Source of the DNA: Mycobacterium sp. UM_CSW
Lineage (GTDB): Bacteria > Actinomycetota > Actinomycetes > Mycobacteriales > Mycobacteriaceae
NCBI RefSeq assembly: GCF_000455205.1
Contig: NZ_AUWQ01000051.1
Coordinates: 1 to 39,170 of the forward strand
Direction: 5' to 3'
DNA length: 39,170 bases
Below the pieces are notes generated by a model. That model saw only the letters and a program-made list of their open reading frames with translations, was not told the DNA's origin and ran no database searches. This document shows, in pieces, positions 21,057 through 22,731 of this stretch (within the stretch, counting starts at the first letter, position 1; the number at the start of each line of letters is the position of its first letter). A program made the position numbers and the translations under genes.

Positions 21057-21372
21057 CTCGCGGTGTCCTCCTCATCGGGTGGCTTCAGGTGTGAGTTCGG
21101 TCCCGTGGCGCTGTCGCCATTATCCGACCCCCGCGGCCCGGCGCGCCCGGCGGCTGCGGGTAGCAGCGGGGCGAAACGAGCCGGTTTTGCAAGCGGGTTG
21201 CGGCGCACCGTCGTTGCGAGGTCGACCGGCGCGCGAACCCGCCCAGGATAGAATCGCTGCCGAACCAGTGGTACGCCACAGATTGACCTCGTATCATTTG
21301 TGGTAGTTGCCCTTAACGGGCATCCGCGTGCTATCGATAGTTACGTGCCAAACTGTCGGCAAGGAGGGACGA
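21057..21372. promoter_or_regulatory. Divergent intergenic region (acetyltransferase / DUF3040 gene)
   Basis: This 316-base stretch has no gene that I can support. Toward the right gene, candidate TANNNT -10 hexamers are TAGAAT (near 21249) and TATCAT (21292-21297). A short hairpin, TGCCC-TTAAC-GGGCA (about 21308-21322), lies close to a TATCGATA palindrome. The right gene has a consensus AAGGAGGG ribosome site at 21361-21368. None of the promoter elements is certain. Confidence 0.4.
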
Positions 21373-21774
21373 ATGCCACTCTCCGATCATGAACAGCGGA
21401 TGCTCGATCAGATCGAGAGCGCCCTCTACGCGGAGGACCCTAAATTCGCGTCGAGCGTCCGTGGCGGAGGGTTGCGCGCGCCGACCGCGCGGCGGCGCCT
21501 GCAAGGCGCGGCGCTGTTCGTCATCGGCCTGGCGATGTTGGTCTCCGGGGTAGCGTTCAAAGCCACGATGATCGGAAGCTTCCCAATTCTGAGCGTCTTT
21601 GGCTTCATCGTGATGTTCGGCGGCGTGGTCTATGCGATCACCGGTCCACGGTTGGCGGGCAGGCCGGACCGTTCCGGATCGGCGCCCGGATCGGCGCGCC
21701 AGCGCCGCAACAAGAGCGGCGGCTCGTTCACCAGTCGCATGGAGGATCGCTTCCGCCGGCGCTTCGACGAGTAG
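21373..21774 (+). CDS. DUF3040 membrane protein (Rv2169c-like)
   Basis: This small membrane protein of 133 residues begins MPLSDHEQRMLDQIESAL, the DUF3040 signature, with a helical acidic N-terminus. Two membrane segments follow (GAALFVIGLAMLVSGVAF and FPILSVFGFIVMFGGVVYA), then a basic cytosolic tail (RRNKSGG, RRRFDE). The function of DUF3040 is unknown. ATG 21373 is preceded by AAGGAGGG at the right distance. An intrinsic terminator follows 17 bases after the stop, isolating this gene from the dcw cluster. In M. tuberculosis an IS6110 copy sits between this gene and mraZ; it is not present here. Confidence 0.88.
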   Translation: MPLSDHEQRMLDQIESALYAEDPKFASSVRGGGLRAPTARRRLQGAALFVIGLAMLVSGVAFKATMIGSFPILSVFGFIVMFGGVVYAITGPRLAGRPDRSGSAPGSARQRRNKSGGSFTSRMEDRFRRRFDE

Positions 21775-21791
21775 CGGGCATAACGCTCAGT

Positions 21792-21823
21792 AAGAGGTAG
21801 CCATCATGGCTACCTCTTTTTTT
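21792..21823 (+). terminator. Intrinsic terminator after the DUF3040 gene
   Basis: A perfect 13-base inverted repeat (AAGAGGTAGCCAT at 21792-21804 and its complement at 21806-21818) is separated by a single C and followed by a run of T (21817-21823). This is a textbook factor-independent terminator with unusually low GC for this genome. It would stop readthrough toward mraZ. Confidence 0.9.
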
Positions 21824-21865
21824 GCGCTCGAGCGAGGGATGCGCGGGGCGTAGTTCATTTCGACT

Positions 21866-21942
21866 CCCAATCGAGCCCAAATCGAGCCATGCATGCGCGA
21901 TACGCCCCACCGGGCCCCACCAGGTCGCCCCACTGCACCCCA
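21866..21942 (-). promoter_or_regulatory. Inverted array of TGGG(G) repeats, candidate second MraZ operator
   Basis: On the minus strand TGGG-type motifs start at 21942, 21932, 21919, 21909, 21889 (TGGC), 21879 and 21869. Intervals are 10, 13, 10, 20, 10 and 10 bases, mostly one helical turn. The motif and period are those of the MraZ boxes next to mraZ, including a degenerate TGGC. No minus-strand gene lies there. It is inferred to be an auxiliary binding region for MraZ. Confidence 0.5.
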
Positions 21943-22081
21943 CTCGGCGATTCACGGCCCTGAGGTGCGGTTTTCCGTCCCGACGACGGGGTCGCAATGC
22001 GTTGTCGGGAGCCATCGGCCAGCGACTGGACCGTGCGTGGTGGCGGAAGAGCGGGAAAACTCGGCCACGACACCCTAGAAA

Positions 22082-22115
22082 TGGGGCGAAGTGGGGGATG
22101 GTGGGGTATGGTGGC
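22082..22115 (+). promoter_or_regulatory. MraZ box array upstream of mraZ
   Basis: TGGGG occurs at 22082, 22092 and 22102, with TGGC at 22112, an exact 10-base period. MraZ is known in other bacteria to bind TGGGN direct repeats at this period upstream of its own gene and to repress the dcw cluster. The array ends 49 bases before the mraZ start, so it very likely lies in the promoter or early leader. Confidence 0.8.
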
Positions 22116-22164
22116 TGAAGCGTTTGGGTGAGGCGAGAGCCGGGTCTCCACGGGAGGTGAGCTG

Positions 22165-22596
22165 GTGTTTCTCGGCACCTACACGCCCAAGCTCGACGAC
22201 AAGGGGCGGCTGACGTTGCCCGCCAAGTTCCGCGACACGTTGGCAGGGGGGTTGATGGTCACCAAGAGCCAGGACCACAGCCTCGCGGTCTACCCCCGGA
22301 CGGAATTCGAGGCGCTGGCGCGCCGGGCCAGCAAGACCTCACGCAGCAACCCCGAAGCCCGAGCCTTCCTGCGCAATCTCGCCGCCGGCACCGACGAGCA
22401 GCATCCCGATGCGCAGGGCCGCATCACCCTGTCGGCCGACCACCGCCGCTACGCGAACCTGACCAAGGACTGCGTGGTGATCGGGGCGGTCGACTACCTC
22501 GAGATCTGGGATGCGCAGGCCTGGCACGACTACCAGCAGACCCACGAAGAGAACTTCTCCGCGGCCAGCGATGAAGCACTCGGCGACATTATCTGA
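22165..22596 (+). CDS. mraZ: Transcriptional regulator MraZ
   Basis: MraZ is a ring-forming DNA-binding protein of the AbrB/SpoVT fold and the first gene of the dcw cluster. It has two such domains, each with the D-x3-R motif: [10 protein letters not shown] (about residues 10-19) and [10 protein letters not shown] (about 81-90). At 143 residues it has the family's usual length. The start is GTG 22165 with a GGGAGGTGA site 9-10 bases upstream. It is expected to autorepress through the TGGGG repeats just upstream. The next gene, rsmH, begins about 150 bases downstream after an RNA motif, so regulation can differ between them. Confidence 0.95.
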
Positions 22597-22636
22597 GGCG
22601 CGTGCCCGTGCATCGTGGCCTCTGCCCGAACCGACC

Positions 22637-22685
22637 CTGGCGTACTTCCCCAACGCCAGGTTCGTATCTTCGGACAGAGACCTGG
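22637..22685 (+). ncRNA. mraW RNA motif-like leader hairpins before rsmH
   Basis: Arms CTGGCG (22637-22642) and CGCCAG (22654-22659) close a loop containing CTTCCCC (22645-22651). A conserved CUUCCCC in a hairpin loop is the hallmark of the mraW motif described upstream of mraW in actinobacteria. A second stem, CCAGGT (22656-22661) with ACCTGG (22680-22685), shares the bases CCAG with the first, so the two are mutually exclusive. The loop can also pair with the GGGGAGG at 22734-22740. Confidence 0.75.
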
Positions 22686-22690
22686 GTGCA

Positions 22691-22731
22691 AGGGCGGCCC
22701 TAAGGGCCGACGGGGGCGCCAGGGCGGCCCT
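22691..22731 (+). repeat. Two 11-base palindromic direct repeats, 30 bases apart
   Basis: AGGGCGGCCCT occurs at 22691-22701 and 22721-22731. Each copy is itself a palindrome around a central G. They lie between the mraW-type hairpins and the rsmH ribosome site, and could fold or be a duplicated spacer. Confidence 0.6.

Follow-up and report, generated by a model that had tools for sequence, protein, structure and literature searches.

Upstream of mraZ, Mycobacterium sp. UM_CSW carries two arrays of GTGGGG boxes: one at the promoter and a second, inverted one farther upstream. The inverted array appears to be a real, family-wide, genome-unique and phase-locked putative operator that would constitute a new form of MraZ control. 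MraZ has an AbrB-like fold and forms rings, and its gene is the first of the division and cell-wall cluster in a great many bacteria. To our knowledge, it is not settled in the field why MraZ forms rings or how it acts on its own promoter. The features of the locus are listed below, with positions given within the window, i.e. the whole stretch of 39,170 nucleotides that was analyzed.

21307-21774, plus strand: upstream gene, presumably DUF3040-type
21792-21823, plus strand: terminator-like hairpin and T run, 3' of the upstream gene (predicted folding energy of -26.1 kcal/mol for 21775-21830, z -5.86)
21905-21943, minus strand: inverted MraZ-type array, defined by genome scan and conservation; four GTGGGG boxes forming two dimers (offsets 0, 10, 23 and 33) at 21905-21910, 21915-21920, 21928-21933 and 21938-21943
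21960-21975, plus strand: conserved element TTGAnnTGCgnTTTT (here CTGAGGTGCGGTTTTC), phased to both arrays
22081-22116, plus strand: promoter array, with ATGGGG at 22081, GTGGGG at 22091 and 22101, and a degenerate GTGGCT at 22111
22107-22112, plus strand: inferred -10 hexamer TATGGT, inside the plus array
22165-22596, plus strand: mraZ, with a GTG start, encoding the likely binder
22600-22703: mraW RNA (RF01746, 77.4 bits), between mraZ and rsmH

Intergenic DNA of about 340 bp lies between the hairpin and mraZ. The encoded MraZ is 99% identical to those of Mycobacterium sp. E796 and sp. 1245805.9, and retains the residues shared by all 17 aligned homologues, including K13-G14-R15 and Q84-G85-R86. 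Its solved relatives represent four distinct MraZ sequences. No Rfam family scored above its gathering score within 21775-22164; a small RNA was rejected as a candidate, the ncS011 match being sub-threshold (27 bits versus a gathering score of 48) and regarded as chance. The opposite strand of the mraW RNA region reaches 40.7, short of the gathering score of 50.

The inverted array consists of repeated TGGG-type boxes on a 10-bp unit, apart from a 13-bp middle gap that departs from even spacing (10, 13 and 10 bases). Its dimers are rare. Across the 6.39 Mb genome there are just three copies of the exact dimer GTGGGGN4GTGGGG, at 21905-21920 and 21928-21943 on the minus strand and at 22091-22106 on the plus strand, all inside 202 bp of the mraZ locus; the reversed pattern, used as the control, occurs four times. 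Within the window, the pattern TGGS(N6TGGS)2 was observed three times, whereas shuffled sequences averaged 0.10. Of 60 genomes of the genus, 10 contain the exact four-box pattern (control 0), in every case beside mraZ by position. Chance or base composition as the source of the boxes is ruled out by the shuffles, the genome scan and the strand bias among relatives described below. A coding role is also unlikely: a 107-aa minus-strand open reading frame spans the region, but a 10-bp unit and varying spacer lengths are unsuited to coding. Dimers with one mismatch number 33 in this genome versus 62 for the control, which gives no indication of a wider MraZ regulon.

These results revise the extent of the array given in the first-pass annotation, which had read seven minus-strand TGGG/TGGC motifs as one mainly 10-base array. 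All seven are present where it placed them, but only four belong to the conserved element, in which the unit is 10, 13, 10. The other three (21866-21889) have no GTGGGG consensus, lie within a CTCGATT direct repeat and recur only in the nearest relatives; the motif pair there was found only in L001-L003 among 80 loci, and the cluster was rejected as part of the element. The centre-to-centre distance of about 190 bases was also an overestimate, the conserved parts being about 174 bp apart. The annotation was nevertheless right in substance: a second, inverted array of MraZ type is strongly supported by family-wide conservation and helical phasing. Its plus-strand array adjoining mraZ, with the same motif and a degenerate TGGC, is also confirmed, and its boxes overlap the inferred -10 hexamer.

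To compare relatives, upstream regions were collected from 80 loci and from genomes of the family and order, and 155 were kept once identical sequences had been removed. These comprise 85 from Mycobacterium (the GTDB genus, window included), 63 from 30 other genera of the family and seven from the neighboring family f14. At the position of the inferred -10 hexamer, a TAnnGT hexamer sits between two boxes and overlaps the next one in 155/155 sequences, a count that partly reflects selection, because TA and T were given weight when the promoter anchor was picked. Many other families of the class have a TTGAC -35 element directly upstream of the hexamer, with two boxes in the spacer. Because TAnnGT lies among the boxes and two boxes occupy the spacer behind the -35 element, the plus array appears to be the core promoter itself. 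A GACAC sequence, which we take to be a WhiA-type motif, is located at 22069-22073, 22 bp upstream of the anchor box at 22091, and is in the same place in 40 of the 85 Mycobacterium sequences.

Minus-strand dimers upstream of the plus array, counted when at least 11 of 12 letters matched, were present in 80/85 Mycobacterium sequences, 62/63 from other genera of the family and 7/7 from f14. Strand bias is pronounced: over the 330 bp preceding the plus array, exact GTGGGG boxes on the minus and plus strands number 237 and 22 in Mycobacterium, 217 and 23 in the other genera, and 48 and 1 in f14. For Mycobacterium and the other genera, the spacings of minus-strand boxes peak at 10, 13, 23 and 33 bp. 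The sequences without such a dimer are L004, L039 (M. leprae), L062 (M. lepromatosis), L059, L063 and L151, with best scores of 8-10/12; L004 has just 221 bp of upstream sequence, and its dimer is missing for want of sequence. M. leprae and M. lepromatosis retain mraZ, and their inverted boxes score 8 and 9 of 12.

The inverted boxes extend, more patchily, to the rest of the class. The survey covered genomes with an MraZ match outside families f1 and f14: 34 of the 64 at order level and 40 of the 75 at class level. Among the resulting 74 sequences, from 44 other families, 20 (in 10 families) carry a minus dimer, and exact boxes number 58 on the minus strand versus 32 on the plus strand. Boxes with at most one mismatch peak at -78 and -68 from the array (13 and 8 of the 74 sequences, against a mean of 1.1 per position). 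These peaks coincide with the position of a proximal inverted dimer, which is located at 75-77 bp in 21 of the 70 sequences outside Mycobacterium.

The distance between the inverted array and the promoter array varies in steps of about 11 bp. Measured from the nearest distal minus dimer to the array, it is 118-176 bp in most Mycobacterium sequences; the 23 distinct values have a best period of 11.15 bp (R 0.73, p 0.0005), where p values are relative to jittered distances and 0.0005 is the floor of the test. For the other genera, 54 distinct genus-distance pairs gave a period of 11.05 bp (R 0.44, p 0.001), weakening when one distance per genus was used (p 0.0155 for one pick; median 0.037 and range 0-0.14 for 20 random picks). 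Phasing was also evident in a scan of 198 genomes for exact dimers. Of the 54 genomes among the matches listed, 50 were used; G078, G175, G096 and G016 were omitted for having no nearby opposite-strand pair among those matches, and G140 was retained although neither of its dimers resembles the usual plus array. The opposite-strand dimers of these 50 genomes are 107, 119, 131-132, 140-142, 151-155, 162-166 or 175 bp apart, with a period of 11.35 bp (R 0.83, p 0.0005; R 0.78 for the 18 distinct values).

Start-codon distances served as the control. Distinct dimer-to-start-codon distances are not significantly periodic (p 0.24 and 0.28); when repeated values are retained, those of Mycobacterium reach R 0.59 at 9.95 bp, which we attribute to related species sharing values. 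The spacing to the promoter operator thus falls in whole helical turns, as in looping operators. The distance quantum of about 11 bp would represent one helical turn, placing both sites on the same face of the helix. The first-pass annotation had proposed aligning the upstream regions of relatives and took loss of the motifs and phasing there as a refutation; in the proportions reported above, the inverted motifs are kept rather than lost, and so is their phasing.

A third conserved element, located between the arrays, provides a further measure. Nearest-dimer distances are confounded by decay of a box pair in L008, L020 and probably L017, and the phasing analysis was therefore repeated with the distance from this element to the array, which is independent of box decay. 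The core pattern of the element, TGANNTGCGGTTTTC, occurs once in the genome. Its Mycobacterium form, TTGAnnTGC..TTTT, has a match above 7 bits between the dimers and the promoter in 80 of 83 sequences; 12 matches at 246-249 bp were dropped as probably false and 68 were kept, including one at 187 bp. The element is 107-110, 120-122 or 130-133 bp from the array, with single cases at 88 and 187 bp, and phasing is strong (n=68, R 0.93 at 11.15 bp). From dimer to element, the distance is 21-22, 31-34, 43-45 or 54 bp. In the other genera, TGAnCTGC was found in 68 of 70 sequences, 51 of them with the element 52-58 bp from the array. A second copy is present farther upstream in some of these genera, accounting for 13 matches beyond 100 bp.

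Changes in the element-to-array length were reconstructed by parsimony on a tree of mraZ and rsmH DNA. Of 20 inferred changes, 11 are of 9-13 bp and none of 4-8 bp; the remainder are five of 1-2 bp and one each of 3, 14, 22 and 67 bp. As midpoint rooting and parsimony leave single events uncertain, the telling point is the gap at half a turn. A third factor at the TTGAnnTGCgnTTTT element is probably part of the same complex as the proteins at the arrays.

The inverted array lies at the mraZ promoter, and its presence accompanies that of MraZ. MraZ was matched in 80 of the 81 genomes sampled from the order. The exception, G367 of family f14, retains a TTGAC...TAATGT promoter with degenerate plus boxes, and no minus dimer was detected within 1.5 kb even at 10 or more of 12 letters, versus 7/7 MraZ-bearing sequences of f14 with minus dimers. 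Likewise, all four genomes of family f33 (L272-L275) are without an MraZ match, and none has a minus dimer or an exact CCCCAC in the 1.4 kb upstream of rsmH. This co-absence is weaker evidence than G367, because minus dimers are patchy among distant families. L274 and L275 carry a TTGAC...TAAAGT promoter upstream of rsmH without GTGGGG boxes.

On the basis of these findings, 21905-21943 is probably an auxiliary inverted MraZ operator of the mraZ/dcw promoter, cooperating with it through face-dependent contact and most simply through DNA looping. From the observed motifs, conservation, orientation and phasing, together with the loss of the inverted boxes in one MraZ-less f14 genome, we infer MraZ binding, looping and the sign of the regulatory effect. 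MraZ oligomers would block RNA polymerase by binding the plus array, with which the core promoter is fused; they would bind the upstream inverted boxes as well. Sites on the same face would let the two bound complexes, or MraZ and RNA polymerase, touch with the intervening DNA looped, and contact across the loop may strengthen or tune autorepression of the dcw cluster. Two rings stacked face to face on a hairpin loop would be compatible with the inverted orientation, as would a single ring that holds two parallel segments.

Where phase is kept across tens to hundreds of base pairs, something at the inverted boxes must face something at the promoter. The phasing favors contact between inverted array and promoter, with looping as the simplest form, and MraZ on both sites with the DNA looped would be an economical reading. 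As the promoter and the plus array are the same stretch of DNA, phasing does not separate MraZ from RNA polymerase as the partner. The inverted boxes could thus bind MraZ yet serve, with no repression loop, to activate or recruit in a phase-dependent way through contact with RNA polymerase or the TTGAnnTGCgnTTTT factor; a third element phased to both arrays would fit such a site. However, boxes of the same type lie inside the core promoter, where binding should block, and distances of 107-175 bp and more are long for polymerase contact without a loop; we regard an activating site as rather unlikely. It is less probable still that a protein other than MraZ recognizes the GTGGGG repeats of the inverted array. 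The 13-bp central gap does differ from the even period of the plus array, and the spacer letters of the two arrays are similar rather than identical, but both share the box and the 10-bp unit, the dimer is unique to this locus in the genome, and the MraZ-less G367 has lost its minus dimers.

Two further explanations concern the DNA and its transcription. For Staphylococcus aureus, one study proposes that the mraZ promoter contains a G-quadruplex (PMC11796246), and the minus strand of the window likewise contains four GGGG runs. A loose pattern (four runs of at least three G, loops up to 12) fits 77 of 149 regions, but 72 conserved regions do not fit, including both sequences of genus g5, and neither a strict 10-bp unit nor promoter phasing is required of a quadruplex, leaving this structure a very slim prospect. 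Equally slight is the chance that the inverted array is the operator of a leftward promoter for an antisense or small RNA. Its orientation is what such a promoter would have, but TANNNT occurs at any fixed offset from the minus dimers in at most 2 of 149 regions, and the Rfam search of 21775-22164 was negative.

The proposed auxiliary MraZ operator has parallels in well-known systems. At the lac, gal and ara looping operators, one multimeric regulator has two sites whose separation preserves helical phase. The two arrays described here are likewise at a helically phased distance, with a putative loop between them. The repressors of those systems are dimeric or tetrameric, whereas here inverted multi-box arrays would be combined with a ring-forming, AbrB-like regulator. 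The MraZ operators of E. coli, Mollicutes and Burkholderia cenocepacia are, like the plus array, 10-base direct repeats at the mraZ promoter (PMC7761207, PMC5138195). For example, the site of B. cenocepacia is given there as a single one of four seven-base repeats with three-base spacers, overlapping the start site (PMC7761207). In contrast to these single arrays, the locus analyzed here has a second, inverted and phased array, and its plus array contains the -10 hexamer. A search of the open-access literature found no report of an inverted or second MraZ array. In Dietzia, a member of this bacterial group, another regulator, MtrA, binds a 100-bp fragment upstream of mraZ (PMC9602371). The MtrA site is unmapped in that study, and MtrA is a possible candidate for the factor at the TTGAnnTGCgnTTTT element.

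Because the second array is conserved, inverted and phased, looping of DNA by MraZ could be tested with a small set of spacer lengths. In addition, the third element points to an unrecognized third factor at the dcw promoter, and half of the regulation may be lost from promoter fragments that end close to mraZ. We consider it an evenly balanced question whether MraZ is an architectural repressor in this actinobacterial family, its oligomers holding two inverted arrays in a phased loop over the dcw promoter with a third factor at TTGAnnTGCgnTTTT. If so, a defined nucleoprotein switch, rather than a simple blocking operator, would control the division cluster.
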